NCBI GenBank assembly: GCA_030427245.1
Contig: JAUHXA010000003.1
Coordinates: 62,001 to 126,000, forward strand
Length of the DNA stretch: 64,000 nucleotides
DNA from: Bacteroidia bacterium
GTDB lineage: Bacteria > Bacteroidota > Bacteroidia > Chitinophagales > UBA2359
Direction of reading: 5' to 3'
In this document: piece after piece, positions 4,084 to 35,555 of the stretch
Position numbering within the stretch: position 1 is the stretch's first letter
Layout of the letters: each line of letters begins with the position of its first letter
Position numbers and translations under genes: made by a program
The notes under the pieces: model-generated
What the model was told of the DNA's origin: nothing
Databases searched by the model: none
What the model saw: the letters and a program-made list of their open reading frames with translations, nothing else

Positions 4084-4722
4084 CTAAGGCTTAGGCATCC
4101 AATCTTTATGCACAAAAAACTCTTGAAGTAGGGTTTGTTTGTCATTACTCAATTTGAAGTAATAACGACCTGGTGCCTGAATATTAGTATCCTGCAAGGT
4201 CAATGTGAAATCAATACTTGCTTCGGGAATGATGCTTGTCCAAACCACTTGTCTTTGATTGTTTTCGATTGCCAAAGAAAAGTCGGAAGAAATAGGTTCA
4301 CTGAAGGTCAGCACCATGTCTTCTACGGCCATATCCCATTCTTTTTCTGTGACAATCAAAGGAATATCGTTTCCTCTATGTGCGTGCGCTAATAAGGGTT
4401 CATAGGTAACAACAGGTCGAAACAAAGCCGCCAATTGCTCCAATGTATAATCTGCTTTATCAAAAAAGCCCTTCCAAAGGTTTTGAAGACCCTCCATTTT
4501 TTCTTCTTGCTGAATCGTTTTTTCTAAAGACTTCAATTCCTGCAAAACGGCCTTGTCACCAAAGTCCTCCAAGCCTACCATGAAATCTTCAAAATAGCCC
4601 ACCAATTCCTTGAAATCAGCATCTGTTTTCATAGATTTATCAAATATTGCTTGTTCTTCTTCGGTCAACTTTCCTGCAAAATGCCTTTCCAGTAATTCTA
4701 AATTATTATTCTCAGCAAACAT
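4084..4722 (-). CDS. Soluble protein paired with ECF sigma factor; candidate anti-sigma or sigma partner
   Basis: This 212-residue protein starts two bases after the stop of the ECF sigma gene, so the pair is almost certainly co-transcribed and translationally close. The N-terminal 75 residues are charged and helical (LERHFAGKLTEEEQAIFDKS), a pattern seen at the N-terminus of many Bacteroidota anti-sigma proteins. The C-terminal 110 residues look beta-rich (DMVLTFSEPISSDFSLAI, APGRYYFKLSND). No membrane segment, signal peptide or zinc-binding HxxxCxxC motif is visible, so it is not a standard membrane anti-sigma factor. I do not recognise the family. The anti-sigma or partner role is inferred from position and N-terminal composition only. 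Confidence 0.6.
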   Translation of the reverse strand: MFAENNNLELLERHFAGKLTEEEQAIFDKSMKTDADFKELVGYFEDFMVGLEDFGDKAVLQELKSLEKTIQQEEKMEGLQNLWKGFFDKADYTLEQLAALFRPVVTYEPLLAHAHRGNDIPLIVTEKEWDMAVEDMVLTFSEPISSDFSLAIENNQRQVVWTSIIPEASIDFTLTLQDTNIQAPGRYYFKLSNDKQTLLQEFFVHKDWMPKP

Positions 4723-4724
4723 CG

Positions 4725-5309
4725 TTATGCGGTTTTTATATGTTGATAAACCATTTTCTTAAGTGCTTCCATGCAGCGTCCTTTCATCGCTTTCACGACA
4801 TTCACGCTTTTGTAATTTAGTTTTTCTGCGACCTCTTTTAGCCTTAGATTTTCATAATAAAACGAAAATAGAATGCTCCTGCATGAAGGACGCATTTTAG
4901 ACAACAATTGAGAGACAAGTTGTTGCCTTTCAGACATTGAATCAAGGTTTGAAGGATTGACTATTAGCTCTTTTACCGGCAAATCTTCTATTTCCATAGC
5001 AGACGTTTTAACTTTGTGTTGTCGGTTTCGATACAACCATACTCGCTTGCCGATAGCAAACAAATAGGTTTTGATACCACTCTTCAAGTCGTCTAAACGT
5101 CCAGATTTCGCATTTTTGTAGAGAGCCAATACACTTTCCTGAAACACATCCAAAGCCATGTCTTGATTGCAGCTCGTTTGTTGAGTCAGCCAATTTACAA
5201 ACGGCTTGCGGTAAGCCCGATAAACCAATTCTAATGCCTTAGAATCTCCTGACTTTACCGCTTCAATCCATTGAGTCTTATTTTTTTCGAGTTGAATAGC
5301 GTAATCCAT
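4725..5309 (-). CDS. ECF-type RNA polymerase sigma factor
   Basis: A 194-residue sigma-70 family protein of the extracytoplasmic-function group. Region 2 is visible as LVYRAYRKPFVNWL and then MALDVFQESVLALYKN, the usual DxFQE-type helix. Region 4 is a helix-turn-helix around RSILFSFYYENLRLKEVAEKL near residues 140-170. Region 3 is absent, as in all ECF factors. The gene is the first of a two-gene unit with the 212-residue partner. Its own upstream region holds a GTTAAC-14-GGCAAC element closely similar in layout to the element in front of four secreted-protein genes just to the right, which suggests autoregulation and a local regulon. The start MDYAIQLEKNK gives a normal length. Confidence 0.9.
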   Translation of the reverse strand: MDYAIQLEKNKTQWIEAVKSGDSKALELVYRAYRKPFVNWLTQQTSCNQDMALDVFQESVLALYKNAKSGRLDDLKSGIKTYLFAIGKRVWLYRNRQHKVKTSAMEIEDLPVKELIVNPSNLDSMSERQQLVSQLLSKMRPSCRSILFSFYYENLRLKEVAEKLNYKSVNVVKAMKGRCMEALKKMVYQHIKTA

Positions 5310-5330
5310 ATACCATCGTCTAATTAATTA

Positions 5331-5356
5331 GTTGCCAAAATTACGAATAGGTTAAC
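5331..5356 (-). promoter_or_regulatory. Candidate ECF-type promoter of the sigma gene
   Basis: Read on the minus strand, GTTAACCT is followed, with 14 bases between the hexamers, by GGCAAC, which ends 21 bases before the sigma start codon. The four genes to the right have GYTARC-14-TGCAAT. The first hexamer and the spacing match exactly, and GCAA is shared in the second. It is weaker than the other four copies and could be chance, but the position fits a promoter. Confidence 0.45.
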
Positions 5357-5502
5357 TATTTAGAACAAAAAAAATGAAAAAGGTGACATTTTTCTATTCT
5401 CCCCAACCCACTCAACTCAACTCCACCTTCACCTCTCAATCCTCTGATAGTCAATTTGTCAAAAATATTTTTTTAAAAAAAGTGATTTTTTTCCTTCAAT
5501 CT

Positions 5503-5540
5503 GCTAGCCTTTTTTCCAAAACTGCAATAAAGGAGTGAAC
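5503..5540 (+). promoter_or_regulatory. Shared upstream element, copy 1 (long form)
   Basis: GCTAGC, 14 bases, TGCAATAAAGGAGTGAAC, ending 53 bases before the lectin start codon. An A-tract ending AGTGA sits about 20 bases upstream. The 38-base element matches three others at 7269, 11449 and 12601 with identical internal spacing. The layout fits an ECF-type -35/-10 pair rather than the standard Bacteroidota TTTG/TAnnTTTG promoter. Confidence 0.7.
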
Positions 5541-5593
5541 GCAATCAACACACTCAATTCACAATTTTAAATAACCTCAAAATCATTCAACAA

Positions 5594-7141
5594 ATGAAAA
5601 AGTACTCTTTACTCACCACCTTCATCTTTCTCTATTTCTTGCTATATCATCACACAATGTTAGCGCAAATAGACCCCAGCAAACACTATCAAATCGTCTT
5701 TGACACAGGCAAAGCACTCGATATAGGAGGCGCACCTGGGGTCAATACCCCCGTTGTTCAATGGGATGCAGACCCTACGGGCAACAATATCAATCAGCTT
5801 TGGAAATTTTCGGTAGTACCTGGTTCGGATGGATCCAACTTTTATATCCAATCTGTCAAAACAGAAAAATACCTCCAAGTACAAGACCTCGACCACGCAT
5901 CTTGGACAGAAAAGGGAAAGTACAAGCTCAAAGGTAAACCCTTCCAAAAAACAGCTTGGCAAATGAAAGTAGTAGAAAAAGGGACGGTAGTAGTCTTGGA
6001 CGAACGAGAAACCAATACCTTAAAAGCTACTGCCCAACAATGGAGATATGTGCAAGTTCCTGGAAATCCACAAAGACAATGCTTCCAAAACTTAGCAAGT
6101 GGGCAAGCACTAGAAGTAGCAGGTGGAGAAGCCAATAAAAATGGAGGTAGAATACAGCAATGGGACCTTAACTATGGAGTCACTCAAAGGCTTCAATTGA
6201 AAACAAAAATAATCATCCCCACTACTGCTCCTCCAACCGCTGAAAGCCCCAAAACAGAAACCTATTACTATCTCCAATTTCGCCACAGTGGAAAAGTATT
6301 GGACAATACAGGTCGCTTAGAAAACGGTGTAACTGCTATTCAATGGGGAATGGCTGGCAATCAAAACCAAGCATGGAAATTGGTGGGGTCGGGAGATGGA
6401 AGCTACTACTACATTCAAAGCCTCAGAAGCAATAAGATACTCGAAGTAAAAGACGGAGCTGTCCACAACGGAGCCGAAATCATACAAAATGACCGAAACA
6501 ATCAAGACCATCAAAAATGGGGACTGGCTCATACTGATAACAACTATTTTCAACTCATAAACAAAAAATCGGGAAAAGTTTTGGATGTAGCTGGCATCTC
6601 ACACAACGATGGTACTAAAATGACTCAATGGGAAGCGATTGCAGGAGGCGGAAATCAACAAGTCAAGTTCGTGCCACATCCAGCCAAAGCACCCGTTGAT
6701 GCTATAATGGGAGCTTGGTACTTCTTTCAGTTCAAGCACAGTGCAAAAGTAATGGACAATACTGGCAAGCTAGAAAACGGCGTAACCGCTATTCAATGGG
6801 GATTGGCTCCTGGAAACGAAAATCAAGCATGGCGAATGGTCAGCTTAAACCCAAATACTCCTTACTTCTATATCGAAAGCAAAAAGAGCGGAAAAGTATT
6901 GGAAGTGAAAGATGGTAGTATGGACGGTGCAGCAGAATTGGTGCAAAATCCATATACAGGAGCAGACCATCAGCTATGGCACATGCCTGCAATGGCACAG
7001 AATGGCTACGATAGAATCTACAACAAAAAAACAGGAAAATGCCTAGATGTATTTGAAATTTCTCACAATGATGGAGCCAAAATGATTCAATGGGAAGCAG
7101 CAGGTGACAACCAATTGATTCGATTTATTCCCTTTTATTAA
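5594..7141 (+). CDS. Secreted protein with three ricin-B-type lectin domains
   Basis: This 515-residue protein has an N-terminal signal peptide (MKKYSLLTTFIFLYFLLYHH...MLAQ, about 25 residues) and then three tandem ricin-type beta-trefoil domains, roughly residues 28-205, 220-365 and 372-515. The Q-x-W signature recurs (NQLWKF, NQAWKL, HQKWGL, NQAWRM, HQLWHM), and the second and third domains are close duplicates (both contain LENGVTAIQWG). Ricin-B domains bind galactose-type and other glycans. No catalytic domain and no T9SS tail are visible, so it is a pure lectin, exported at least to the periplasm. It has shared element copy 1 upstream and a 115-base hairpin repeat starting at its stop codon. 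Confidence 0.9.
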   Translation: MKKYSLLTTFIFLYFLLYHHTMLAQIDPSKHYQIVFDTGKALDIGGAPGVNTPVVQWDADPTGNNINQLWKFSVVPGSDGSNFYIQSVKTEKYLQVQDLDHASWTEKGKYKLKGKPFQKTAWQMKVVEKGTVVVLDERETNTLKATAQQWRYVQVPGNPQRQCFQNLASGQALEVAGGEANKNGGRIQQWDLNYGVTQRLQLKTKIIIPTTAPPTAESPKTETYYYLQFRHSGKVLDNTGRLENGVTAIQWGMAGNQNQAWKLVGSGDGSYYYIQSLRSNKILEVKDGAVHNGAEIIQNDRNNQDHQKWGLAHTDNNYFQLINKKSGKVLDVAGISHNDGTKMTQWEAIAGGGNQQVKFVPHPAKAPVDAIMGAWYFFQFKHSAKVMDNTGKLENGVTAIQWGLAPGNENQAWRMVSLNPNTPYFYIESKKSGKVLEVKDGSMDGAAELVQNPYTGADHQLWHMPAMAQNGYDRIYNKKTGKCLDVFEISHNDGAKMIQWEAAGDNQLIRFIPFY

Positions 7142-7254
7142 AAAAGAAAAAATAACTCCCCGACCAATATTCCCCTTTTGAAAAGCTTGTCCCGATTTCT
7201 CGGTGGGGGTTGGGGTATGTTAGCAAAAAAAGCGGGGAGCTATTTTTTTACCGT
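7139..7254 (-). repeat. Dispersed inverted-repeat element R1, copy 1 (diverged)
   Basis: This is the same element as at 34674-34796 and 44991-45113, in the opposite orientation and about 90% alike. The ends form arms (ATAACTCCCCG / CGGGGAGCTAT) that stay complementary although the bases differ from the other copies, so the hairpin is conserved rather than the sequence. It overlaps the lectin stop codon and may serve as its terminator. Confidence 0.75.
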
Positions 7255-7268
7255 TTTTTTTAAAAAAA

Positions 7269-7306
7269 GTTAACCTTTTCTTCAAACCTGCAATAAAGAA
7301 GTGAAC
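7269..7306 (+). promoter_or_regulatory. Shared upstream element, copy 2 (short form)
   Basis: GTTAAC, 14 bases, TGCAATAAAGAAGTGAAC, ending 44 bases before the tectonin start codon. Here the A-tract abuts the first hexamer directly (AAAAAAAGTTAAC). It is nearly identical to copy 3 at 11449. Confidence 0.7.
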
Positions 7307-7350
7307 ACCCAAAATTTCAAAATTCAATTAACCTTTAAAAAATAACAACA

Positions 7351-8190
7351 ATGAAGACTTTAACAACAACTTTTGCACTTGTATTTTTCTTCTTTTGTGC
7401 TTACAGCACTACTGCCTTTGCTCAAACCAATTGGACTAAAATTGGCGATAATGGAAAACAAATAGTCAGCGAAGATGGCTATATTTATTATGTCGATAAT
7501 AAAGACCATGCCGTTTGGATGTACGATGGTGAACCAGGCAAATGGATAAAACTGGGAGGCAAGGCACTCCAAATAGCTGCCGATGGAGATGTAGTATATT
7601 ACATTCATCAAGACACCAATGATATCTACATGTACGATGGTAGCAATTGGTCTAAAATTGGTGAAAAAGGACTTCACTTAACTGCTGATAATGGTGAGTT
7701 GTACCAAATCAGTTCTACCAACAATGATATTTTGAAATACAACGGAACTCCCAACAGTTGGAGTAAGATTGGTGCTCGTGGTCGTCAAATAGCCGCAGAT
7801 GGAGATAATGTATTCTGCATAAGTTCAGATTACACTATTTGGAAATATAGTGGCACTTCTGATATATGGCATAAAATTGGCGGAGACTGCCTTCAATTGG
7901 CAGCAGCAGGCAACAAATTATATTGTATGAGTTCAAATGCTGATGAAATATGGATGTACACTGGCAATGGAGGTACCTGGACTAAAATTGGCGAAAGAAG
8001 TGGTCAATTGGTTGCTGTTCCGAATCAACTTTACTGTATCGGAACAAGACACAGTGATATTTGGAAATACAACGGAACGCCTGAAAACTGGACTAAAATT
8101 GGAGGTGAGACAGCCCAAATTGCCATAGGCTTAGATAATTTATTGTCTATCAAAAAAAATGATGCCTCTATTTGGAGTATCACAGAGTAA
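7351..8190 (+). CDS. Secreted tectonin-type six-bladed beta-propeller lectin
   Basis: A 279-residue protein with a signal peptide (cut after STTAFAQ, about residue 25) and then only tectonin-type repeats of about 39 residues. Seven W-x-K-(I/L)-G motifs occur (NWTKIG, KWIKLGG, NWSKIG, SWSKIG, WHKIGG, TWTKIG, NWTKIGG), the last closing the ring, as expected for a six-bladed propeller. Each blade also has an I-W-K/M-Y strand (VWMYDG, ILKYNG, IWKYSG). Tectonins bind lipopolysaccharide or methylated glycans in other organisms. The protein is a paralogue of the gene at 11545 and carries the same upstream element. No enzyme domain is visible. Confidence 0.87.
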   Translation: MKTLTTTFALVFFFFCAYSTTAFAQTNWTKIGDNGKQIVSEDGYIYYVDNKDHAVWMYDGEPGKWIKLGGKALQIAADGDVVYYIHQDTNDIYMYDGSNWSKIGEKGLHLTADNGELYQISSTNNDILKYNGTPNSWSKIGARGRQIAADGDNVFCISSDYTIWKYSGTSDIWHKIGGDCLQLAAAGNKLYCMSSNADEIWMYTGNGGTWTKIGERSGQLVAVPNQLYCIGTRHSDIWKYNGTPENWTKIGGETAQIAIGLDNLLSIKKNDASIWSITE

Positions 8191-8233
8191 GAAAAGCGCA
8201 ATAGAACACTATTCGATTCTTCAATCTAATGAA

Positions 8234-8274
8234 ATGACGCTCTCTATCAATGAGAAGCGTCATTTTATTTTTTT
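8234..8274 (+). terminator. Rho-independent terminator after tectonin gene
   Basis: The stem ATGACGCT / AGCGTCAT with a short loop is followed by a T-rich run (TTTTATTTTTTT). It lies 43 bases after the tectonin stop and before the convergent CHAT gene. Confidence 0.75.
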
Positions 8275-8284
8275 ACTAAAAATC

Positions 8285-11200
8285 TCATCCTCCAATCAAC
8301 ACAAACCCACACCAACTTTTCACATCCACCTCCTTTTCCTTCAATAGCTTCAATTTTGCCAATCGCAAAGCAGAAGTGTAACTCAATCCCCCCAATACCC
8401 CTTCAAACAAATACTGCGTCAACAAACTACTCGGTCGGTCATACACCTTAAACAAAGTCGACACCACATTCTTCGCCCCTGCATACAAAAAACCCCGATT
8501 CACCGCCATCATCCCCTCGCCTTTCGCCAACTGTCCAATGCCACTTTCGCAACTACTCAGAACCACCAAGTCGGTTTTGGAGAGATTGAGGTGATAGGTT
8601 TCTTCCATGGAGAGGATACAATCTGTATTGGAAGTAGGAAGCAAGAAGCGAGAAGAAGGAGCTGAAGTATCCTTCGTTATATCTTGCTTCTTACTTCCTA
8701 CTTCTTGCTTCCCCTCAGGATAAAACACCAATCCTGACAATTTCGGCTGCTCATCATTCACCACACCATGCGCCGCCACCAACAAAAAACGACTGTTTTC
8801 TACTACTTTCTGAAACTGTTCCTTGGTCGCTTGTTCATGTAGAAAAGTCTTCGACTTCAAGCCCTTTTCACCAAACAAAGCGGCAATGTTTTGGGCTTCG
8901 GTTTTGGAGTGTGGAAGCGGATTCCAAGTGCCATCCGACCGCAAAGCCTCCGAGCGTGTTGCCCATTGCCCAACCGCTTTTGCAGCTTCATTCAAGTTTT
9001 CCAACAAAGTATCACTCTCTCCTTCCAGTTTCTCTCCTCCTACTTCTTGCCTCTTACTTCCTACTTCCGCTTCATAAACAGGTGCAAACCCCACAAAACT
9101 ATTTTCAATTGCAGCCCTTTCTCCAACTTGCTGCTGTTGTTTCAATAGATAATGCCACAAAGTAGCCGAATAGTGGTAAGAAACTTCACAGTGTAAAAGC
9201 AGGTAATCCAAATCGTGATAGCGATTAAGGGAATTTTCCTTTTCCTCTACCCTTAAAAAATCTTCCACAGGGCTGCAAAGCAAGGCTTCAAAAGGCACAT
9301 AGTTCAAAATACCATGCGGAACAATCAGCAGTTTTTTGGAGGCTTTGTTTTGTTCCGTCATTGAAGGTTCTGCAAAAAAGTCTATCAAGTGCATTTCCAA
9401 AGGTTGCAAGAGGAATTGATAGAGTTCGTAAGCTGTTTCAGCATACTTTTCAAATTGATGATTGTGAATAGATTGAAGGAAGTCATTCACCAATTTTTCA
9501 AAATCATCAGCTATTTCTACTTGATGTACTTCAAAACTATCACTTGAAACAAAGAAAATATAGAGGTATTTTTCGCCTACAAAGTAATTGACCATCATCT
9601 GATTTTCTGCCAAACCTTGCTGAATTACTCCAATCGAAACGGTTTGGGTTTCGTATTTGAGTTGGTAGTAGTCGGGATAATCTTGCTCGAATTGTTGGAT
9701 GAGTTGAAGGTATTCTTGGTGAAGGTCGAAGAATTGGGATTTCCATTGGAGGAGAATGTTTTCTCTTTGTTCTTTTCCTTTGGCTTCTTCTTTAGCGATT
9801 TGTTTTTCGAGGAAAGTGAGTTGGGATTTAAGATTTATTTCTTTATCAAGTAGTAAGGAAGGGATATTCGCAGAGGTTTTAGAGATGTTATCCTGTATTG
9901 CAGTAAGTAATGTATTTGCTTTTGCTTTCTCACAAAACAGATAAGCTTTTTGCCAGTCATTTGTCAGAGCAAAGATTTGCACCCCTAAATCAAAAATTTG
10001 GACAATCTCAGATTGTGAGGATAAGAACAATCTACTTTGTTGATTTCTAAAGCTTTTTTTAGCCTTATCAATAATTTCCAATCCTTTTTCAAGCGTTTTT
10101 TGAGCAACATTCAATAAATGGCTGTATTCGTTTTCTACTAAAAAAAATTCTAATAAACATTTAATTTTTTGGGAATAAATTCTGATAAGCTGAACACTAT
10201 CAAAATGTTCGGTGGATGTGGGATTCTCATAGAGAGTTGAATACTGAAAATTGGGAAAAAGAACAGTGAATGATTTTTGGACATAGGCTAATGATTTTTC
10301 AAAATCTTCTAATTCAAGATATAGTACACTACCTAAAAGCATATTACTCGAAACATCTGCACGAGATACAGTGTCAAATTTGGAGTAAATTTTTTCTGCT
10401 TTATTTAGAAAATCAATGGCTTTTTTATGGTCTTTTAAATACATTTTATACCGAGCTAACTCATGATAACATAAAGCAATATCGGGGTGAGTCTCAGGTA
10501 AGTATTTTAGCTGATGGTCAAGTACTTGTTCGGCAAGTACGTAAGCTTGAAAAAAATCACCTTGGTCTTTATGAATTTTTGACAAGGCTTTTTTAATATG
10601 AGCCTCTTTGTTGTTTTTTCCTTCAAACTCATTTTGGTGACACAATTGAAGGGCATGATTTAGATTTTGCAAGGCTTTGACTTCATCATTAAGTTCAGTG
10701 TAATATGCCCCTAAATTTGTATAGAAAATAATTTCATTATTAAGGTTTACAGTAAAATCTAAAGAAACATTCAAGCTATCCTCCATTTTTATTTGCCTTA
10801 AAGTAGAAATAGCTTTTTCGGCATAGATAGCAGCAGATACAAAATCATTGGTTAGTGTATGAACATACGCCAAGTTGCTATAATCCGATACAATATTAAC
10901 TTCATATTCTTTTTCATTAAGTTCTATAAGTATGTCCAATCCCTTTTTAAAATATTTTTGGGCTTGAAATGGGTTTTCCATAAATTGTGCATACCAAAAT
11001 CCCAGTCGGTTAGTTGCAGCATAGGTTTGGATATGTATTGCCCCTAACTTATTATTTGTCAATTGAAGTGTTTGGATAAGAGAACGTTCTACTTCCATAA
11101 AATCTGTATTTCCCTCAAGAAAAATCTTGCAGATACAAATGGTGTTTTTTGCTTCAAGGTATTCTTCCCATAGACTAAATCTCTCAAAAATTGAAGCCAC

Positions 11201-11320
11201 ATTCATAGCCAACTGTAAACTATCTTCAAACTTATGATTGTAAGATAGTTCTACTGACTTATCTAAATCTGCTTTTGCTTCTTTTAGTAAATCTTCTTTA
11301 CTTAAATCTGATTTATCCAT
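8285..11320 (-). CDS. TPR-CHAT caspase-like protease
   Basis: A 1011-residue cytoplasmic protein with no signal peptide. The first 480 or so residues are tetratricopeptide-like helical repeats (for example SNLAYVHTLTNDFVSAAIYA), followed by a coiled linker. The C-terminal 320 residues are a CHAT domain, a clan CD caspase-like peptidase. The catalytic dyad appears intact: His about 851 in LLVAAHGVVND and Cys about 924 in LVVLSSCESGIGQLAKGEG. The end (KSWCGFVLIGG) is typical. Two loops of the CHAT domain contain in-frame insertions made of a short inverted repeat (EVGSKKQ in one direction, RFLLPTSN in the other). The gene lies on the opposite strand between the two tectonin genes and lacks their upstream element. 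TPR-CHAT proteins act as signal-activated proteases in conflict systems, including Craspase. The target here is unknown. Confidence 0.92.
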   Translation of the reverse strand: MDKSDLSKEDLLKEAKADLDKSVELSYNHKFEDSLQLAMNVASIFERFSLWEEYLEAKNTICICKIFLEGNTDFMEVERSLIQTLQLTNNKLGAIHIQTYAATNRLGFWYAQFMENPFQAQKYFKKGLDILIELNEKEYEVNIVSDYSNLAYVHTLTNDFVSAAIYAEKAISTLRQIKMEDSLNVSLDFTVNLNNEIIFYTNLGAYYTELNDEVKALQNLNHALQLCHQNEFEGKNNKEAHIKKALSKIHKDQGDFFQAYVLAEQVLDHQLKYLPETHPDIALCYHELARYKMYLKDHKKAIDFLNKAEKIYSKFDTVSRADVSSNMLLGSVLYLELEDFEKSLAYVQKSFTVLFPNFQYSTLYENPTSTEHFDSVQLIRIYSQKIKCLLEFFLVENEYSHLLNVAQKTLEKGLEIIDKAKKSFRNQQSRLFLSSQSEIVQIFDLGVQIFALTNDWQKAYLFCEKAKANTLLTAIQDNISKTSANIPSLLLDKEINLKSQLTFLEKQIAKEEAKGKEQRENILLQWKSQFFDLHQEYLQLIQQFEQDYPDYYQLKYETQTVSIGVIQQGLAENQMMVNYFVGEKYLYIFFVSSDSFEVHQVEIADDFEKLVNDFLQSIHNHQFEKYAETAYELYQFLLQPLEMHLIDFFAEPSMTEQNKASKKLLIVPHGILNYVPFEALLCSPVEDFLRVEEKENSLNRYHDLDYLLLHCEVSYHYSATLWHYLLKQQQQVGERAAIENSFVGFAPVYEAEVGSKRQEVGGEKLEGESDTLLENLNEAAKAVGQWATRSEALRSDGTWNPLPHSKTEAQNIAALFGEKGLKSKTFLHEQATKEQFQKVVENSRFLLVAAHGVVNDEQPKLSGLVFYPEGKQEVGSKKQDITKDTSAPSSRFLLPTSNTDCILSMEETYHLNLSKTDLVVLSSCESGIGQLAKGEGMMAVNRGFLYAGAKNVVSTLFKVYDRPSSLLTQYLFEGVLGGLSYTSALRLAKLKLLKEKEVDVKSWCGFVLIGG
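8631..8712. repeat. Short inverted repeat inside the CHAT gene
   Basis: A GAAGTAGGAAGCAAGAAGCG stretch at 8631-8655 faces its near complement at 8683-8712. Both arms are translated in frame, as the peptides RFLLPTSN and EVGSKKQ. The segment lies in a CHAT surface loop between the His and Cys motifs. Confidence 0.7.
9036..9073. repeat. Second copy of the same short repeat in the CHAT gene
   Basis: The same TACTTCTTGC-CTCTTACTTCCTACTTC pattern recurs and encodes EAEVGSKRQEVGGEK in another loop, before the His motif. Together with the copy at 8631-8712 it points to repeat spread within the gene. Confidence 0.6.
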
Positions 11321-11369
11321 TGGGAACTATTTTAGTTCAGTATTCCATCCCAAAATAGCTTTTTTTCTC

Positions 11370-11420
11370 AACTTTTTAGCACTTCAAACCCATCAAACAT
11401 CATTTAAGTTATTTGTTTTT
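11370..11420. repeat. Upstream block duplicated at 12515-12562
   Basis: About 48 bases are alike in both places (both contain CATCAAAC, then CATTTAAG, then ATTTGTTT). Each precedes the shared GYTARC-14-TGCAAT element, at copies 3 and 4. The block may be part of a duplicated promoter or an activator site. Confidence 0.55.
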
Positions 11421-11448
11421 GTCATACAAAAAAAAATCTCCAAAAAAA

Positions 11449-11486
11449 GTTAACCTTTCTTCAAAACCTGCAATAAAGGAGTGAAC
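11449..11486 (+). promoter_or_regulatory. Shared upstream element, copy 3 (short form)
   Basis: AAAAAAAGTTAAC, 14 bases, TGCAATAAAGGAGTGAAC, ending 58 bases before the second tectonin start codon. Confidence 0.7.
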
Positions 11487-11544
11487 AATACTTCATAACC
11501 GTTCAGAAATTTAACATTTTCTAATTTTTCAAAAAATTTATAAC

Positions 11545-12378
11545 ATGAAAAACACAGTATATTTATTCATTCTTTCCCTTTTGAGTTTTGGTTTTTTAAA
11601 TGCACAACCCCAATGGACTCATATTGGTGGTGATGCAGGTCAAATTGTTAGTGAAGCAGGATTTACCTATTGTGTAAACAAAAACAATCATACAGTCTGG
11701 ATGTATAATGGAACTCCCCATAACTGGACTAAGATTGGAGATAATGCCCTTCAAATAGTTGCTACGGGAAGTGATTTATTTTGTATTAAGAAAAATGACA
11801 ATTCTGTTTGGAAGTACGAGCGAAGCGTCAATAAGTGGAATCAGATTGGTCATAATGCCCTCCAATTAGCTGCTGATAATGGTAAGTTGTACATGCTTAC
11901 ACGTTACAACCATATTCAGCAGTGGAATCGCTTTAACTATACTTGGACTTCAATTGGAGTTAATGCCCTTGAAATAGCTGTGGATGAAAATAATTTATAT
12001 CTTAAGTCACGAAATAATGCCATTTTTAAGTACAACGGTTCTCCTCAGCAATGGACTATGATTTCCAGCAGTTGTCCTGGTCAATTGACTGCCGTTGGTA
12101 ATAAATTATATTCTACGGCACCCAACAACACAATAGTGATGCATAATGGTAAACTCCATTATGGTTGGGTTAATATTTGTAGCGATTGCAATCGGTTAAC
12201 AGCAGTTGAGAATCAGCTTTATTGTATCCGTCCCAATGGTGGCATATTGAAATACAACGGTTTTCCTAATAGCTGGACTCAAATTGGTGGTGATGCTACA
12301 CAAATTGCAGGAAACTCAAATAATTTATTGTGTATCAATAAAAACAATGCCTCTATTTGGAGTATTTCAACAAAGTAG
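11545..12378 (+). CDS. Secreted tectonin-type beta-propeller lectin, paralogue of the gene at 7351
   Basis: A 277-residue protein with a signal peptide (cut after GFLNAQ, about residue 21) and six tectonin blades. The W-x-x-I-G positions are seen as QWTHIGG, NWTKIG, KWNQIG, TWTSIG, QWTMIS, GWVNIC and SWTQIGG. The fifth and sixth have lost the glycine and gained cysteines (SSSCPG, CSDCNRL), which may form a disulfide. The C-terminal NNASIWSIS matches the end of the paralogue. The same upstream element and the same strand as the other lectin genes suggest shared control. No catalytic motif is seen. Confidence 0.86.
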   Translation: MKNTVYLFILSLLSFGFLNAQPQWTHIGGDAGQIVSEAGFTYCVNKNNHTVWMYNGTPHNWTKIGDNALQIVATGSDLFCIKKNDNSVWKYERSVNKWNQIGHNALQLAADNGKLYMLTRYNHIQQWNRFNYTWTSIGVNALEIAVDENNLYLKSRNNAIFKYNGSPQQWTMISSSCPGQLTAVGNKLYSTAPNNTIVMHNGKLHYGWVNICSDCNRLTAVENQLYCIRPNGGILKYNGFPNSWTQIGGDATQIAGNSNNLLCINKNNASIWSISTK

Positions 12379-12432
12379 GAAAAGTGCAGTAGAATTCAAT
12401 TTCAATTTAGTATTTTTTATGTAAAAGCGCTC

Positions 12433-12475
12433 ATCCCTCGAAAGTTTAAGCAATCAAACTTTTGAGGGATTCTTT
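12433..12475 (+). terminator. Terminator after second tectonin gene
   Basis: Stem ATCCCTC-x-AAAGTTT / AAACTTT-x-GAGGGAT followed by TCTTTAATTC, about 55 bases after the stop codon. The rest of the 410-base gap to the next gene holds the duplicated block, shared element copy 4 and a 150-base leader with nothing else recognised. Confidence 0.7.
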
Positions 12476-12514
12476 AATTCTTTAGCAAGACCTCACAAAA
12501 TAATCCTGTTCCCC

Positions 12515-12562
12515 AACTTTTAACACTCCAAATTCATCAAACGTCATTTAAGGAATTTGTTT
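12515..12562. repeat. Second copy of the duplicated upstream block
   Basis: Matches 11370-11420 and again lies just upstream of a shared promoter-like element. Confidence 0.55.
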
Positions 12563-12600
12563 GAATCACTCGAAAAAAAGTAATTTTTTTTCTCCAATCT

Positions 12601-12639
12601 GCTAGCCTTTCTCCAAAAACTGCAATAAAAGAGTAGAAC
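12601..12639 (+). promoter_or_regulatory. Shared upstream element, copy 4 (long form)
   Basis: GCTAGC, 14 bases, TGCAATAAAAGAGTAGAAC. As in copy 1, an A-tract ending in AGT lies 19 bases upstream of the hexamer. It ends 149 bases before the start codon, much farther than in the other three, so the transcript would have a long leader. Confidence 0.65.
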
Positions 12640-12788
12640 ACCTAAACTCCGTAAAAGATAGGACACAAATAGAACTCACCACCACAGACGACTATTCTTG
12701 GCTTATCCCACAAGATGTATAGGTTTTCATCATTGAAGCAGAACAATCTTAATTCCTTATTTACATTTTCTAAAAAAAATATTTTATC

Positions 12789-13754
12789 ATGAAAAAAATC
12801 AATACTTCATTTTTTAAAACTTTGATAATCAAAAGTACACTGATATGCCTATTGGTATTGGGCATCTTTGGACAACTAGGCACACTACTTTATGCAGTAG
12901 ATTGTAACACTTCTGATATCACTTTAACTACTCAAACAGAAGTCAATACTTTTCAGGCTACATATGGTCCTTGTGATAGGGTAGCTGGACAATTGCGAAT
13001 TGATGATGACAACGACAGTAATGACAATATCACTGATTTAACTCCTTTAGCGGGACTTACAAGTATAGGTGGTAGTTTGATACTCGCAGAAAACAATAGC
13101 TTGGTTAGTCTGAATGGTTTGAACAATATTACCTCCACTGGCACTTTAGAATTTGCCGAGAACACCGCTTTGACAGATGTAAACCTATTGAGTTTGACGG
13201 TGGTTAACGGTCATTTTAGAGTGAAAGAAAATCCTCTTCTTCCCAATTTAGATGGTTTCAGCAATCTAACGAATATTCAAAAAGATATGGACATTTCAGA
13301 AAATAATGCCCTAGTGAATATAGATGGTTTGTCTTTTCTACAGTCAGTTGGAGGATTGGTACGACTCGAACAAAATCCTTTATTGCAAAACTTAAATGGA
13401 TTGTGCCAATTAAACAGTGTTAATGAAGACCTTACAGTAAACAACAATGCACAATTAACTGACTGTTGTGGAGTTTATCCCATTATCAATGCAGGTGGAA
13501 TAGGACAAAATATAAATATGAGTGGAAACAATGTAGCTGGAAATTGTAACAACAATGGAAATGATTTGAACGGAACAGATTGCGCCAGTGAATTTTGTAT
13601 TCCCATTCCTCCTACTCCTATTCCTACCCTTTCCCAATGGGGCTTAATTATCTTGGCTTTACTGCTGATGATTTGCGGTACACTTTATTTAATGCAGCCG
13701 AATTTTGCAGAAGAAGAAAATAAATTTAATAGAAAATACAAAACTAAATCGTGA
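12789..13754 (+). CDS. Exported leucine-rich-like repeat protein with IPTL-CTERM sorting tail
   Basis: A 321-residue protein with an N-terminal hydrophobic signal (LIIKSTLICLLVLGIFGQLG). Residues about 75-240 are leucine-rich/L-domain-like repeats of about 24 residues (LTPLAGLTSIGGSLILAENN, LVSLNGLNNITS, LPNLDGFSNLTNIQ). A short Asn/Gly-rich segment leads to PTPIPTLSQWGLIILALLLM and a basic end. This is an IPTL-CTERM tail: motif, membrane helix, positive charges. Such tails are handled by exosortase-type enzymes in other bacteria. A T9SS tail is absent, so this product leaves the cell differently from the giant adhesin. It has shared element copy 4 upstream. Confidence 0.85.
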   Translation: MKKINTSFFKTLIIKSTLICLLVLGIFGQLGTLLYAVDCNTSDITLTTQTEVNTFQATYGPCDRVAGQLRIDDDNDSNDNITDLTPLAGLTSIGGSLILAENNSLVSLNGLNNITSTGTLEFAENTALTDVNLLSLTVVNGHFRVKENPLLPNLDGFSNLTNIQKDMDISENNALVNIDGLSFLQSVGGLVRLEQNPLLQNLNGLCQLNSVNEDLTVNNNAQLTDCCGVYPIINAGGIGQNINMSGNNVAGNCNNNGNDLNGTDCASEFCIPIPPTPIPTLSQWGLIILALLLMICGTLYLMQPNFAEEENKFNRKYKTKS

Positions 13755-13786
13755 AACAATCAGATTGAAGTGCTTCTCAAAATACA

Positions 13787-13822
13787 CTCCCAAAATGGCT
13801 TCGGCTGTTTTGGGAGATTTTT
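13787..13822 (+). terminator. Terminator after the IPTL-CTERM gene
   Basis: Perfect stem CTCCCAAAA / TTTTGGGAG with a 12-base loop containing TTCG, followed by ATTTTT. Confidence 0.85.
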
Positions 13823-13931
13823 ATTATCCTTCAATTCAATTGTTCGATGAAAATTTATTTTTCACCAAAATTCCAAGATATAGTTTCTATTTCATCTAAG
13901 AAAATGATTTTTAATTCTAAAAAATTTTCAG

Positions 13932-15410
13932 ATGAAAAACCTTTTATTAATCCTTTGCTTCCTTCTCTTTATATCTTCGAGTTCAATTGAAGCACAGGTA
14001 AACAGCAACTACTACTATACGATTCAATCTAAAGTCAGTGGTCATTATTTAGATGTCAAAGGCAGTAGCAAAGACCCTAAGACACCCATTTGGCAGTACA
14101 AACAAAACAATACCGATGCCCAAAAATGGAAATTTATTGCAGCAGGAAGTGGCTATTACTACATCCAATCCAAAGTAAGTGGTTTGTATTTAGATGTCAA
14201 AGGCGGAAGCACAAGTTCTGGCGTAATTGTTTGGCAATACTCAAAAAATGGATCGAATGCTCAAAAATGGAGACTACAAAACGCAGGTGGCGGTTATTAC
14301 TACATTCAATCCAAGGTCAGCGGTCATTATTTAGATGTCAAAGGCAGCAGTCAATCAAGTGGAGCAACCGTTTGGCAATACAAGTTTAATGGATCGGATG
14401 CCCAAAAATGGCGGCTTAGAGTAGTAGCGACTTCTCCTCCTCCTCCAAGAACGGGCATCAAAGAAATCAACTATTTAGGCAACTACCCATCCGATAGAGA
14501 CAATAACTGGAGCGATAACCTTCAGGGGGTCACCCACGATTCCAACAACTGGTATTTCACTCAACTCACAAAATTGTGGAAGTTTCCCTTTAGCCACAAT
14601 CTCAACGAAGAGGTAAATGGCCCCAACTCCAGCAAACAAATCTTTCGTATCACAATTCCCTCTTTTTTAGCTCAACAAGGTTACAATCATTTTTGTGATT
14701 TGGATTATATGGATGGATACCTATTTGTTCCCATTGAAGGTAATAGCGAAACCTTAGTTCCCTACCTGTTGGTTTACAAAGCCTCTAATCTTCAATACAT
14801 TGGAGGAGTAAAACTTAGCCGACAAAAACAAGCTGGCTGGTGTGCGATTCACCCTATAACAAAGGTAATTTACAGCTCCAACAACCACATTGACCACAGC
14901 AATACTGGCAAAAAAATACACCGATATACCGTAGATTTCAATCGCCTGAAGAACAATGAAGTGGTCATTCTTTTCAAAGATTATTACAATCTCTACAACG
15001 AAACAGGTAGCCGTAAGCAAGACCTAAAAGAGTACATGCAAGGGGGTGATTTTTCAGAAGATGGGGATTTTTTATTTTTGGTCAATGGAAAGGAAAATGA
15101 CGAGACTCCTGCAAAAGATGGAGGCGTATGGGTTTTTCACAACGCTACGGGTAGAAAATTCACCAAATCTTTCAGTCAAACCTCTGACTTTGACGATCCT
15201 AATTATACCGAAACTTCGATTAATAGGAGATTTCGCTATGAATATCATCCTGGCGGGCTTACAGCAGAAGAACCTGAGGGTATTACAGTTGGCAATATAA
15301 CGGGCAAAGGAGCTCCCAATATTTCGGGGCAAGTGCATGTCATTATGCTTGACGTCGATTTAACAACAGATGACGAGATGTATTTCAAACATTATCAGAT
15401 TGTGAAGTAG
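13932..15410 (+). CDS. Secreted ricin-B lectin fused to a propeller-like domain
   Basis: A 492-residue protein with a signal peptide (cut after SSSIEAQ, about residue 22). Residues about 26-165 form a ricin-type trefoil made of three very similar 45-residue units (each with YYIQSKVSG-x-YLDVKG and NAQKW/DAQKW). A proline linker follows (SPPPP). Residues about 180-492 have many aromatic and glycine turns (GVTHDSNNWYFTQLTKLWKF, GWCAIHPITKVIYSSNNHID) and look like a beta-propeller; I do not recognise the family or an active site. It lacks the shared upstream element, although it is adjacent to the regulon and has a strong terminator. Confidence 0.85.
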   Translation: MKNLLLILCFLLFISSSSIEAQVNSNYYYTIQSKVSGHYLDVKGSSKDPKTPIWQYKQNNTDAQKWKFIAAGSGYYYIQSKVSGLYLDVKGGSTSSGVIVWQYSKNGSNAQKWRLQNAGGGYYYIQSKVSGHYLDVKGSSQSSGATVWQYKFNGSDAQKWRLRVVATSPPPPRTGIKEINYLGNYPSDRDNNWSDNLQGVTHDSNNWYFTQLTKLWKFPFSHNLNEEVNGPNSSKQIFRITIPSFLAQQGYNHFCDLDYMDGYLFVPIEGNSETLVPYLLVYKASNLQYIGGVKLSRQKQAGWCAIHPITKVIYSSNNHIDHSNTGKKIHRYTVDFNRLKNNEVVILFKDYYNLYNETGSRKQDLKEYMQGGDFSEDGDFLFLVNGKENDETPAKDGGVWVFHNATGRKFTKSFSQTSDFDDPNYTETSINRRFRYEYHPGGLTAEEPEGITVGNITGKGAPNISGQVHVIMLDVDLTTDDEMYFKHYQIVK

Positions 15411-15441
15411 ATCCTTCAAATCTTGATGATTTCAAAATAGA

Positions 15442-15477
15442 AAACTCCCCAAATAACCGTAGCTATTTGGGGAGTTT
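15442..15477 (+). terminator. Strong terminator after ricin-propeller gene
   Basis: A 14-base perfect stem (AAACTCCCCAAATA and its complement) with an 8-base loop, followed by TATTTTTATTT. Confidence 0.88.
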
Positions 15478-15537
15478 ATTTTTATTTCACCCAATCCTTT
15501 CGCACAAAAAACGCTCCCATTACCACTTCCCCATTCA

Positions 15538-15672
15538 TCACCAAATACTAATAATAACGACCTGAAAAATGTAGAAAGCCTTCAAGCGATTTCTAAAATG
15601 ATGATACAATACCCTAAACATTTGTTCTTCTCCTTTTTGCAAGCGTTCTAACCATTCTTGTCGGTTCGCCTC
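15538..15672 (-). pseudogene. Remnant of a sigma-70 (ECF) gene, region 2
   Basis: A 44-codon open stretch on the minus strand, without a start codon at its beginning, reads EWLERLQKGEEQMFRVLYHH and then FRNRLKAF before losing similarity and stopping. This is the typical opening of an ECF sigma factor (helix 1 of region 2). No region 4 is visible nearby. The rest of the 395-base gap between genes has no other content that I recognise. Confidence 0.5.
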
Positions 15673-15754
15673 TCAATCCTGTATGTTAGAAAAATTATGC
15701 ACTATCACGTTAAATACTTGATGTATATACGGCAAAAATGCGAATTTTGAACTT

Positions 15755-15762
15755 TAGCTTTG
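15755..15762 (+). promoter_or_regulatory. TAnnTTTG -7 box before the epimerase gene
   Basis: TAGCTTTG is an exact match to the Bacteroidota housekeeping -7 consensus, 43 bases before the start codon. No convincing -33 TTTG is seen. Confidence 0.4.
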
Positions 15763-15805
15763 TTTTTTGACTATTATTAATGCTCAAATTCAATACATCA
15801 AACAA

Positions 15806-16627
15806 ATGAACTCAACCATATCTATCATCGGCTGCGGTTGGCTTGGCCTCCCCTTAGCGGAATACCTTCAAAAAAAAGGCTTCTCTATCAAAGGTAGTAC
15901 CACGACTCCTTCCAAATTGGAGGAGTTGGCTGCAAAAGGAATCCAGCCTTTTCTCCTTCAATTGCAGGGCAAAGACTCCCAATCACCCGAACAAGATACA
16001 ATTCTAAGTAAATTATTGCAAGCAGACATTTTGATACTCAATATTCCACCAGGCCGAAAAAATCCAGATGTTGTGTCTTCATTTTTGACAAAAATCAAAA
16101 CACTCCTCCACGCCATTGCAACCTCCCCCATACAAAAGATAGTATTTGTCAGTGCCACTTCTGTCTACTCCCTTCAAAATAAAGTCGTCACCGAAGTTGA
16201 TGCTCAAAATCCCACCAAAACTTCGGGCAGGGCATTGCTTCAAGCCGAACAATTATTGCAGAACTGCCCAAATATCGAAACAACCATTCTGCGTTTGGCA
16301 GGTTTATATGGTCCTAATCGTCCCGCTGGACGTTTTTTGGCAGGAAAAAAAAATTTATCGAATGGAGAAGGGCGAGTCAACTTGGTGCATCAGTTGGATT
16401 GCATTGAAGTGATTTACCAAATCATTCGACAAGAGAAATGGAACAAAACCTTCAATGTCTGCTCAGACGACCATCCCACAAGACAAACATTTTACACAGA
16501 AGCCGCCCAAAAACTACGCTTGCCCCCTCCTACTTTTCTACTCGATAGTTCTGCCCAATATTGCATTGTGTCGAATGAAAAAGTAAAAACAGAGCTTGGA
16601 GTATTCTTTAGAAACCTAACTGACTAA
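15806..16627 (+). CDS. NAD(P)-dependent epimerase/dehydratase-like protein (YeeZ type)
   Basis: A 273-residue Rossmann-fold protein of the extended SDR group. The nucleotide-binding loop IIGCGWLGLPLAEYLQKKGF is at residues 7-26. KIVFVSATSVYS, near residue 105, is the family's strand with the catalytic-site Ser/Thr. LRLAGLYGPNRPAGR follows near residue 166, as in NAD-dependent epimerases. The ATG at 15806 is chosen over an upstream TTG because it places the nucleotide-binding strand at the normal distance from the N-terminus. The substrate is unknown. The stop lies inside a triplicated 8-base repeat (TAACTGAC, 16617-16640). Confidence 0.85.
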   Translation: MNSTISIIGCGWLGLPLAEYLQKKGFSIKGSTTTPSKLEELAAKGIQPFLLQLQGKDSQSPEQDTILSKLLQADILILNIPPGRKNPDVVSSFLTKIKTLLHAIATSPIQKIVFVSATSVYSLQNKVVTEVDAQNPTKTSGRALLQAEQLLQNCPNIETTILRLAGLYGPNRPAGRFLAGKKNLSNGEGRVNLVHQLDCIEVIYQIIRQEKWNKTFNVCSDDHPTRQTFYTEAAQKLRLPPPTFLLDSSAQYCIVSNEKVKTELGVFFRNLTD

Positions 16628-16858: not shown

Positions 16859-19800
16859 ATGTATATGTTCCAACGGTACTCTTGTATTTTATATGTATGT
16901 TTAGTCACTTCCTTCCTTACCTTATGGCATCCCCTTTCCCTTCAAGCGCAAGGACTCATGGTCAATGAAATATCGCAAGGTAACACAGGTCAAAAAGAAT
17001 TTGCAGAATTGGTGGTCGTAGGAGATCCCTGTACGACTGTCGACTTACGTGGATGGATTGTAGATGACAACAACGGCGATTTTACGGATTGTCCTGGACC
17101 TGATAATGGCGCTCTATCAGGAACAGGTATTGCCATGGGGCATATTCGTTTCAAATACGACCCTATATGGGAAGAAGTTCCTGTTGGAACTATCATCGTC
17201 TTATATGCTTACAACCCTTCCCTCCCTACCCAACAAGCAGACTTGGGTAGTCTAGACCCTACAATTCCTGATTACGATGATTCAAACTGTGATTTTCTAA
17301 GGCTTGTTCCTGTTAATGCTTCCAATACGTATATGGAGTATGACTCAACAACTCCTCATACCCCTACATCGGGTAATGGAGCGGACAATATTGTTTGTCC
17401 AAATGGAGCAAATGCCGCCGCAGAAGGTTCTCCTGCCTACACTCCTGCTAGCTATATTCCTCTTACAGATACTGGATTCACAGGCAACTTTGAATTTAGA
17501 AATGCTGGGGATGCGTGTCAAATCCGCCAACCAGATGGCAGTTACTTTCATGGTATTTCTTATGGTACCAGCGGTTCAGGTGCACCAGACATTATTGGAG
17601 GCCCAGACAATTTACACGTTTCAGCAGTAGGTGGTAGCAATAGAAACTATTTTTTCGACAATGGTGCCAGCGATGATTATACCAATGTTGCCAACTATAT
17701 TGCGGGAACTGCCTCTACCGACCAAACTCCAGGCTTTCCGAACTCCTGCCTCAATGCCCAATGGATAGAAAGCATGAGAACCGCACCTGATGATGAATTT
17801 CAAGGCGCAAGCTGCCCAAATATGGGAGCACCTGCGACTTTTTGTGCAGGAGACCAAATGACCTTCTCACTTACAGGGTGTGATTCAGACAGTTATCTTT
17901 GGACACTTGACAATGGAAATGCCACCATTGTCGGAGCCGATGATGGAAAATCAGTAGTAGTAGAAGGAGTTAGTGCCGGCAGTGCTATATTAACGGTCAC
18001 TGCTACCAATGCATACACCGACTTATTCACAAATTTGTCAGGTTGTTCGGCAAGTTCTCAAGATGATTTATATACATTTGTTTTGACCATCAATGCTCCT
18101 GCGACACCTGCTATCACAGGTAATGACATCTGTGGCAGTGGAAACAGCATCTTATCACTCAACAATACCTATACCCAATACACTTGGAGCAATGGAGGAA
18201 ACATGCTCACTACAAGTGTAAGTGCAGCAGGAACTTATACAGTAACGGTGACAGATGGCAATGGCTGTACTGCTACTGACGATATTACCATCAATGTAAA
18301 CACCCTTCCAGTTGTAGATATCGAAAACAATCCAGGAACCGATATACTAGAATTCTGTGAAGGGGATGCCACATTTTTAGGAGCTACTTTGTCTGGAAAT
18401 GGCCCTTATGGTTATAATTGGTCGAATGGACAAACCAACAACATCATCACTGTAAATAATGCCCCTCCAGGAACTCACACATTCACTGTCACTGTCACCG
18501 ATGGCGATGGGTGTACAGGAACAGACGATGTAGTGGTAGAAATTATTCCTATACCGACTTCTTCAAGCCTAACCATTGAATTATGCGAAGATACGCCGGG
18601 TTCAGGCATCGCCACAGGTGTAGACCTCACCGAATACAACCTTCTACTCAACGATACACCCAATGTGGAGTTTGACTGGTTCGATGGCGATTTGGTTACT
18701 TATGTGTACATTAGCAACCCAACAAATTTCGATTTCCCTCCTTCCAACAATGCCTTATCCGTAGACATTATAGATGATATTGCAGTAAGCGACTGTTATA
18801 TATCGCTTATAATTCCTTATACAATTTTTTCCTCTTCCGTCTTTAGCCCCATCGGCAATGACTTTTGTGAAGGAGAAACCACCACGCTTTCTGTTAGCGA
18901 AACCTTCAACAACTATGTATGGTCAAATGGAGTAACGGCACAAAGTATCACCGTCAGTACAGGAGGAACTTATACCGTCACCATTACGAATGACAACGAT
19001 TGTACTTCAACGGGTACCGTTTCCGTTATTGAAGTCAGCAATTCCATTCCAACTGTAAGCGGCAATGATTTTTGTGAAGGGGAAAATACCACACTTTCTG
19101 TTAGCGAAACCTACGATACCTACAACTGGTCCAATGGAGATGCAGGACAAAGCATCAGCGTCAATACGTCAGGAACCTACACTGTAACTGTTCAAAATAC
19201 GGCTGGCTGTACCAATACTGGAGAAGTCACCGTCAATGAACTCACCAACTTGGATCCTACTATCAATGGAAACAACTTTTGTGTAGGTTCAGATGTCGTT
19301 ATTTCTGTTGCAGAAACATACACAACTTACGACTGGTCAAATGGAGATACGGGACAAAGCATCAGCATCAATACAGCAGGAACTTACACCGTCACCGTTG
19401 AAGATTCAAACGGTTGTACAGGAACAGCACAAGTAAGTATCTCAGAATCTTCCATTTCTAGCCCGACCATCAACGGCAATGATTTTTGTGAGGGAACCAA
19501 TACACCTCTTTCTGTTATCGAAACTTACAGTATTTACAATTGGTCCAATGGAGACGCAGGTCAAAGCATCAATGTCAATACAGCAGGAACATACACCGTC
19601 ACCGTTGAAGACGCAAGCGGTTGCACAGGAACAGCACAAATCGCGATTAGTGAACTACCACCTTTGACACCAACTGTCAACGGCAGCGATTTTTGTGCAG
19701 ATACAAACACTGCGCTTTCTATTACCGAAGCTTATGATACCTACAGTTGGTCCAATGGAGACGCAGGTCAAAGCATCAATGTCAATACAGCAGGAACATA

Positions 19801-34979: not shown

Positions 34980-35555
34980 TCACCTAACAAACTCTTTGTC
35001 GTACAGGTGAGCGATTTTTCTTTTTGCTCTTAAAAGGCGCATTTTGATAGCGCTTTCAGCCAAGCCATATTTGTCCATGAGTTCTTTTAAAGAATAACCT
35101 TGAAGATATTTCAATTCAAGCATTTCTCTGGTTTCTCCTGTAAAACGACTCAATAATTTTTGGACACGTTGAAAACGCAGATAATCTTCATCTTTGTATT
35201 CTTCGTAGGCTAGTTGTTTGGCTGTTTCCATTTGGGTTTCCAAAGAGACCTCTGCTCTCTTTTTCTTACTTCTCACATAATCCACACAACTGTTGTAAGT
35301 AATGCGATATAACCAACTCGAAAAAGCAGATTTGCTTTGAAAGGTAGATACTTTGCGGAGAGCCTTTACCAAAATATCTTGTGTCAAATCAAAAGCTTTG
35401 TCTTTATCTTTTGTGAATGTCAAGCACTTATGATAAACTTTTCGATAATAACGGCTGTAAATTACTGCAAGGCACTCGTCGCTTTTAGTTGTTTTGTAAG
35501 TTGATAATAGCTCTTCGTCAGAAAGTTTCTCTAATTCCAAAGTTGAGTTGGGCAT
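34980..35555 (-). CDS. ECF-type RNA polymerase sigma factor (second in window)
   Basis: A 191-residue sigma-70 family protein with the ECF layout. Region 2 is seen as VIYSRYYRKVYHKCLTF and DKAFDLTQDILVKALRKV, then SAFSSWLYRITYNSCVDYVR (the -10 recognition helix). Region 4 has LSRFTGETREMLELKYLQG and SLKELMDKYGLAESAIKMRL, the helix-turn-helix. It is about as different from the sigma factor at 4725 as any two ECF families. No anti-sigma gene adjoins it. The start MPNSTLELEK fits homologues. A good -7 box lies about 100 bases upstream. Confidence 0.92.
   Translation of the reverse strand: MPNSTLELEKLSDEELLSTYKTTKSDECLAVIYSRYYRKVYHKCLTFTKDKDKAFDLTQDILVKALRKVSTFQSKSAFSSWLYRITYNSCVDYVRSKKKRAEVSLETQMETAKQLAYEEYKDEDYLRFQRVQKLLSRFTGETREMLELKYLQGYSLKELMDKYGLAESAIKMRLLRAKRKIAHLYDKEFVR

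Follow-up and report, generated by a model that had tools for sequence, protein, structure and literature searches.

A 64,000-nucleotide stretch of Bacteroidia bacterium DNA (assembly GCA_030427245.1, contig JAUHXA010000003.1, positions 62,001 to 126,000 of the forward strand; hereafter the window, numbered from its first base) carries a bipartite element with a fixed 14-base spacer ahead of five genes of one locus: that of an extracytoplasmic function (ECF) sigma factor and those of four exported proteins. The element is very probably an ECF-type -35/-10 promoter read by the adjacent sigma factor, whose binding to it we infer from the comparison of homologous loci. The locus as a whole is best explained as an autoregulated ECF regulon, a joint reading to which we assign a probability of about 0.75, weighted towards its promoter part: the sigma factor (4725-5309) would drive its own gene through the site at 5356-5328, together with four neighbouring genes for exported lectin-like or sorted proteins. 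The product of the gene next to the sigma gene presumably holds the sigma factor inactive, and proteolysis of this partner by a tetratricopeptide-repeat (TPR) protein with a CHAT domain is the likely trigger, which would take place in the cytosol for the module of the window and in the periplasm where the module is membrane-bound. A homologous module with the same promoter architecture is found across Bacteroidota and points to a little-studied signalling system; the value of the element beyond the promoter is that it leads to this protease-linked sigma module.

The element in the window

The sequence-only reading of this DNA had listed four plus-strand sites of the form GYTARC-N14-TGCAAT, and these, at 5503, 7269, 11449 and 12601, are all the matches in the window, where 100 shuffles gave a mean of 0.08 and none reached 4. 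All four continue with TGCAATAAA and then with GGAGTGAAC, GAAGTGAAC, GGAGTGAAC or AGAGTAGAAC. Also present is the minus-strand GTTAAC-N14-GGCAAC noticed ahead of the sigma gene (5356-5331); in its 29-base form (5356-5328) this site lies three mismatches from the consensus and ends 18 bases 5' of the sigma ATG. The -10 hexamer is better taken as AATAAA at the targets and AACTAA at the sigma gene, 17 bases from the -35 hexamer, with TGC falling within the spacer.

So divided, the putative promoter of the sigma gene (5328-5356, minus strand) has GTTAAC as its -35 (5356-5351) and AACTAA as its -10 (5333-5328). On the plus strand, each of the four target genes stands behind one element. The site at 5503-5531, with -35 GCTAGC (5503-5508) and -10 AATAAA (5526-5531), precedes the gene for an exported RicinB-lectin repeat protein of 515 residues (5594-7141). 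Those at 7269-7297 and 11449-11477, both with GTTAAC and AATAAA, precede two exported tectonin-like proteins, one of 279 residues (7351-8190) and a paralogue of 277 residues (11545-12378). The site at 12601-12629, with GCTAGC and AATAAA, lies 159 bases upstream of the ATG of an exported 321-residue protein with an IPTL-CTERM sorting motif (12789-13754). No element was found in the 177-180 bases 5' of the second RicinB gene (13932) or of the CHAT gene. An AGTGAAC-like block lies just 3' of the -10 in the four target promoters (5532-5541, 7298-7307, 11478-11487 and 12630-12640) and was not seen at the sigma promoter.

Across the whole 7.58-Mb assembly GYTARC-N14-TGCAAT occurs at six places, the four window sites and two with dissimilar spacers. 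The genome-wide scan proposed as a check therefore returns a cluster, as a local regulon would give, and no sign of a regulon scattered over the genome was seen in the assembly scans. A 38-base consensus searched over the assembly with three mismatches allowed recovered only three of the four window sites, 12601 failing the longer form.

The 29-base element shows 0.72-0.90 identity across all pairs of window sites, and most flanks are not so conserved. The sites at 7269 and 11449 lie 5' of the paralogous tectonin-like genes (42% identity over 274 residues), and between them the element is 0.86 identical whereas the upstream flanks reach only 0.30-0.37. Those at 5503 and 12601 share 0.83 identity over 30 bases upstream despite the unrelated genes that follow, so this promoter segment was probably copied. 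The four sites thus form two pairs and are not four independent draws. The earlier argument that common descent of whole genes does not explain every copy holds insofar as three of the genes are not paralogues, and needs qualifying for 5503 and 12601, which look copied. Both likenesses might suggest that the four copies are merely recent segment duplications without constraint; this is scarcely credible, given that paralogues diverged to 42% identity keep the element while their flanks have drifted and that the architecture recurs elsewhere in the phylum.

The sites had also been described as unlike the TAnnTTTG promoters of Bacteroidota. This holds for the four targets, with no such box within 180-300 bases 5' of their genes; upstream of the sigma gene the box occurs twice. 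One of these copies, TAATTTTG, lies inside the ECF-type site as a candidate housekeeping -7 box, and is possibly a basal housekeeping promoter.

Homologous sigma loci across Bacteroidota

Since the four target sites also resemble one another in the sequence of the 14-base spacer, the window alone cannot show that only the spacing matters; the role of spacing alone is seen at other loci, whose spacer sequences differ. A close set comprised 20 loci and then 37 more, with sigma homologues of one family in 37 of 40 genomes, several per genome. A broad set of 80 Bacteroidota-wide loci, three of which repeat known contigs, came from a separate scan of 84,980 species genomes; Roseivirga, Winogradskyella and Dokdonia are among the genera in which it located the module. 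Loci L060-L062, on the same contigs as L048, L051 and L050, were dropped before counting, and sigma matches weaker than 1e-40 or starting beyond profile position 15 were left out of the pattern, logo and cluster counts.

The pattern GTTNA[CG]-N14-NNNNAYWAA was read by eye from the close loci and then fixed, so the 10 of 25 matches among those loci are not independent, and the broad-set upstream regions, not inspected beforehand, served as the held-out sample. There the pattern was present at spacer 14 in 27 of 75 sigma upstream regions and at spacer 13 in nine, each other spacer from 9 to 19 giving 0-1 of 75 and shuffles averaging 0.2-0.4. When both sets were collapsed at 50% sigma identity, spacer 14 was found in 18 of 51 clusters, spacer 13 in four and the others in 0-2. 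The pattern also discriminates between sigma genes of the same loci, being present at spacer 14 before 37 of 102 members of the family and before none of 31 other ECF sigma genes, in support of the ECF -35/-10 interpretation first proposed from the window. A preceding spacing test relied on a matrix built from the window sites alone. Its outcome was blurred, with 10 of 25 at the correct spacing and five one base off, since GGTACTAAA allows alignment in two registers, and the pattern test took its place.

The logo obtained from the sigma promoters reads GTTTAC-C/A-TTTT... TAYWAA, that is, a -35 of GTTTAC, 17 bases and a -10 of TAYWAA. This bears on the observation that GCTAGC and GTTAAC are both self-complementary, which is true in the window and does not extend to the class. 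Together with the conservation that continues beyond the -10 into AGTGAAC, that symmetry would fit operators of a dedicated regulator with a palindromic GTTAAC/GCTAGC half-site. At other loci, however, the hexamer is mostly non-palindromic, GTTTAC and GTTCAC together dominating, so the palindromes are incidental local variants and a palindrome-binding operator was rejected. With a 17-base geometry like that of -35/-10 pairs and sites that track one sigma family, we regard an operator function as very improbable.

In the same phylum, the SM6 promoter class of Flavobacterium psychrophilum is likewise of the ECF type and governs surface and secretion genes, as presented in PMC9723704, although its -10 region contains a CGT box where TAYWAA or AATAAA stands here. 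For the family described here, the motif offers a promoter code with which the regulons of many modules could be listed from sequence.

Local sets of candidate targets

The upstream regions in all loci were scored with a matrix derived solely from 37 promoters of sigma genes. Matrix sites before non-sigma genes were found close to the sigma gene, in 12 of 83 cases at less than 600 bp, 4 of 112 at 0.6-2 kb and 6 of 228 at 2-5 kb, falling to 2 of 235 at 5-8 kb, 0 of 162 at 8-20 kb and 0 of 18 beyond, with shuffled means of 0.0-0.6 over all bins. The 32 hits nominally outside sigma genes resolved into seven sigma genes called with late starts (identified by hand), four partner genes and 21 other genes. 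These 21 targets include two window genes, and the two window genes behind GCTAGC, added by hand, bring them to 23. By a crude hydrophobicity rule, 21 of the 23 appear to be exported, compared with 112 of the 241 remaining genes of the same loci; signal-peptide and transmembrane assignments throughout rest on simple rules of this kind. Nine targets were compared with Pfam and gave outer-membrane barrels, a hemopexin-repeat protein, FG-GAP proteins and one type IX secretion tail, three being unmatched. A site before the partner gene itself, present in four loci, would give negative feedback.

In the genome of the window, a second sigma locus (L041) has its own motif, GTTCACAAACTCCAATAAA..TACTAA, which occurs at two places in the 7.58 Mb; both sites (7315-7343 and 11315-11343) belong to that locus and precede unrelated genes. 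The two are also alike over some 40 bases upstream. Taken with the distance profile, these sites suggest regulons that are local and private to each sigma locus and that consist mostly of exported proteins.

Locality also bears on which sigma factor reads the sites. The genome holds 23 matches to the sigma query, eight of them above 100 bits, and the promoter architecture is common to the family, so another ECF paralogue, or several with overlapping specificity, might be the main reader. We consider this unlikely, because the sites cluster around each sigma gene and the two loci of this genome each have a unique full-form motif.

Several observations weigh against recognition of the element by the adjacent sigma factor. 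No more than roughly one third to one half of the homologous sigma genes carry the strict pattern, and among the 28 more distant homologues of a third set it was found twice at spacer 14, three times at 13 and once at 16, sparse matches implying that the signal fades with distance. In the window, the two GCTAGC promoters miss the strict GTTNA[CG] and do not score above the threshold set for the sigma-promoter matrix. In 20 of 46 pattern-bearing sigma genes (for example L044 at 10179-10207, L089 and L110) the -10 directly adjoins the start codon or runs into it, implying either leaderless sigma transcripts or wrongly called start codons, and leaderless mRNAs are given as just 5.5% in F. psychrophilum (PMC9723704). 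Finally, orientation is imperfect, with 12 same-strand and 5 opposite-strand matches among 733 non-divergent upstream regions.

The partner and the TPR-CHAT protein

The sigma factor of the window is a 194-residue protein encoded on the minus strand (4725-5309) and identified by TIGR02937 (56.6 bits, cut-off 42.9) and PF07638 (22.3, cut-off 21.1). Its gene is directly followed downstream, on the same strand, by that of the partner, a soluble anti-sigma-like protein of 212 residues (4084-4722) with N-terminal helices, a linker containing a conserved Arg116 and a C-terminal immunoglobulin (Ig)-like domain. The first 75 or so residues of the partner match proteins whose genes adjoin ECF sigma genes in other loci of the order, and no Pfam or NCBIfam anti-sigma family was matched; its anti-sigma activity is presumed. 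The third component, also on the minus strand (8285-11320), is a TPR-CHAT peptidase-like protein of 1011 residues (PF12770, 171 bits) with a putative catalytic dyad of His851 and Cys924.

These three genes recur together. In the first 20 loci of the close set, a partner gene was detected 3' of almost all close sigma genes, often with a TPR-CHAT gene in the vicinity. In the broad set, the gene after the sigma gene mostly encodes a protein that fits the partner profile over its first 60-80 residues, and a TPR-CHAT gene is usually no more than a few kb away. Within the genome of the window, 9 of the 15 partner genes have a CHAT gene within 10 kb (binomial chance 7e-6). The same 7.58-Mb genome holds 45 CHAT domains, some of them clustered (contigs C35, C79 and C172). 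Of 83 CHAT proteins, 81 have the His/Cys dyad.

A transmembrane segment is absent from the partner in 25 of 25 close cases and present in 54 of 65 in the broad set (the three repeated contigs included); the TPR-CHAT protein is soluble in the window family and elsewhere has a signal peptide and a C-terminal anchor. Topology was paired by locus in the 68 loci with both genes. Among the close loci both proteins are soluble in 26, a soluble partner goes with one hydrophobic CHAT segment in one, and both are of the membrane form in one (L174), a membrane pair inside the window family. Among the broad loci, a membrane partner is accompanied by a doubly anchored CHAT protein in 31, by one segment in seven and by none in one, and one soluble partner goes with an anchored CHAT protein. 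The two topologies agree in 65 of the 68 loci if a single hydrophobic CHAT segment counts as the membrane form, in counts that are not independent, since the match reflects mostly one evolutionary split.

The C-terminal domains of the two forms of the partner are unlike, Ig-like in the window form and TPR in the membrane form. Between these and the N-terminal domain, however, both forms have an aromatic-Pro stretch as well as an arginine with a small residue after it. The position of Arg116 is an arginine in 56 of 60 broad-set partners, with Gly, Ser, Asp or Ala as the next residue in all 56; in the wider close set an arginine is aligned in just 30 of 47. The linker containing Arg116 is a candidate protease site. 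The arginine itself as the point of CHAT cleavage is weakened by Craspase orthologs, reported in PMC11106740 to cut between the nonconserved pairs A and S, L and D, and M and K. We give cleavage of the partner by the CHAT protein, which would release the sigma factor, about an even chance.

A comparable protease-controlled sigma switch is DegS/RseA/RpoE, in which a protease of a family unrelated to CHAT cuts an anti-sigma factor and so frees an ECF sigma factor. The soluble form found here differs from it in that it would act in the cytosol. That envelope stress switch is named in PMC10028731, which describes the nearest experimentally tested counterpart, the Csx29/Csx30/CASP-sigma module. There an ECF sigma factor, several binding motifs of which lie inside the locus that encodes it, is kept in check by an inhibitor that a TPR-CHAT protease cuts. 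The two systems have in common the TPR-CHAT peptidase fold, a separate anti-sigma partner (a presumed one here) and an ECF sigma factor with motifs inside the locus. The present module differs in that it has a membrane form and exported targets, and in that the window partner has no detected relation to Csx30 (no family matched). It also lacks Cas families and short-spaced repeats: no Cas family was found among the nine proteins of 4084-16627 that were scanned, and no 23-mer in the window occurs at least three times at a spacing of 45-90. A search for defence-system membership gave no PADLOC match for five proteins. In the CalpL/CalpT/CalpS cascade of protease, anti-sigma factor and ECF sigma factor, the protease is, according to PMC11417357, a Lon protease with a SAVED domain triggered by cyclic oligoadenylate, and not a CHAT protein.

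Structural comparison of the CHAT model gave alignments with Csx29 (7y9x; Z 27.5, root-mean-square deviation (rmsd) 10.5, 572 residues aligned), separase (5fc3; Z 21.5, rmsd 3.7, 321 aligned) and the anti-sigma factor DdvA (8rw5; Z 21.2, rmsd 11.2, 597 aligned). Direct sequence matches of the TPR-CHAT protein in the PDB were TPR proteins, among the matches listed. Csx30 was not among the fold-search matches listed for the partner, which the Ig-like domain filled. DdvA (8rw5, 8rot), as its structure entries present it, is a transmembrane anti-sigma factor, and its fold aligns with the window model over both the TPR and the CHAT parts, suggesting that TPR-CHAT-like and anti-sigma parts meet there too; it unites in one protein an anti-sigma name and a TPR-CHAT-like fold, whereas here these parts are on two genes and the window partner has no transmembrane segment. 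The literature search turned up no paper on the DdvA structure. Nor did the full-text search return a paper describing the present module, which may be listed in the ECF reclassification (NAR 2021), outside that search.

The alternative to be weighed is that the promoters are of this class while the TPR-CHAT protein serves as an effector, or merely happens to be encoded nearby, another signal freeing the sigma factor. Three facts speak for this alternative: none of the CHAT genes in the scanned loci bears the promoter; 6 of the 15 partner genes of the genome have no CHAT gene inside 10 kb; and the genome holds 45 CHAT domains in all. The active-site loops of the CHAT model, which fall below 50 in predicted local distance difference test (pLDDT), also weigh against the proteolytic trigger. 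Against the alternative stand the co-location beyond chance, the presence of CHAT near most broad-set sigma genes, the matched topology, the near-universal dyad and the precedent of Csx29/Csx30 as given in PMC10028731. We therefore treat a bystander or effector role as a serious contender, somewhat short of even odds.

If the TPR-CHAT protein does act on the partner, a tentative wider picture would be a caspase-like switch, free of CRISPR, spread across Bacteroidota: a cut in the linker, perhaps after the arginine, would release a sigma factor that fires private promoters of exported proteins. Such a switch would exist in periplasmic and cytosolic versions, protease and substrate having shifted together, and as insulated copies within one genome. 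The association of TPR-CHAT with sigma loci outside CRISPR suggests a wider, non-CRISPR relative of Csx29/Csx30/CASP-sigma, and for many uncharacterised TPR-CHAT proteins it supplies a testable substrate, cut region and read-out.

Two further features lie elsewhere in the window. A second, distant ECF sigma-like open reading frame is present on the minus strand at 35052-35525 (profile E 5e-07), and an open reading frame of 3892 residues at 16859-28537 contains many similar repeats of about 80 residues.

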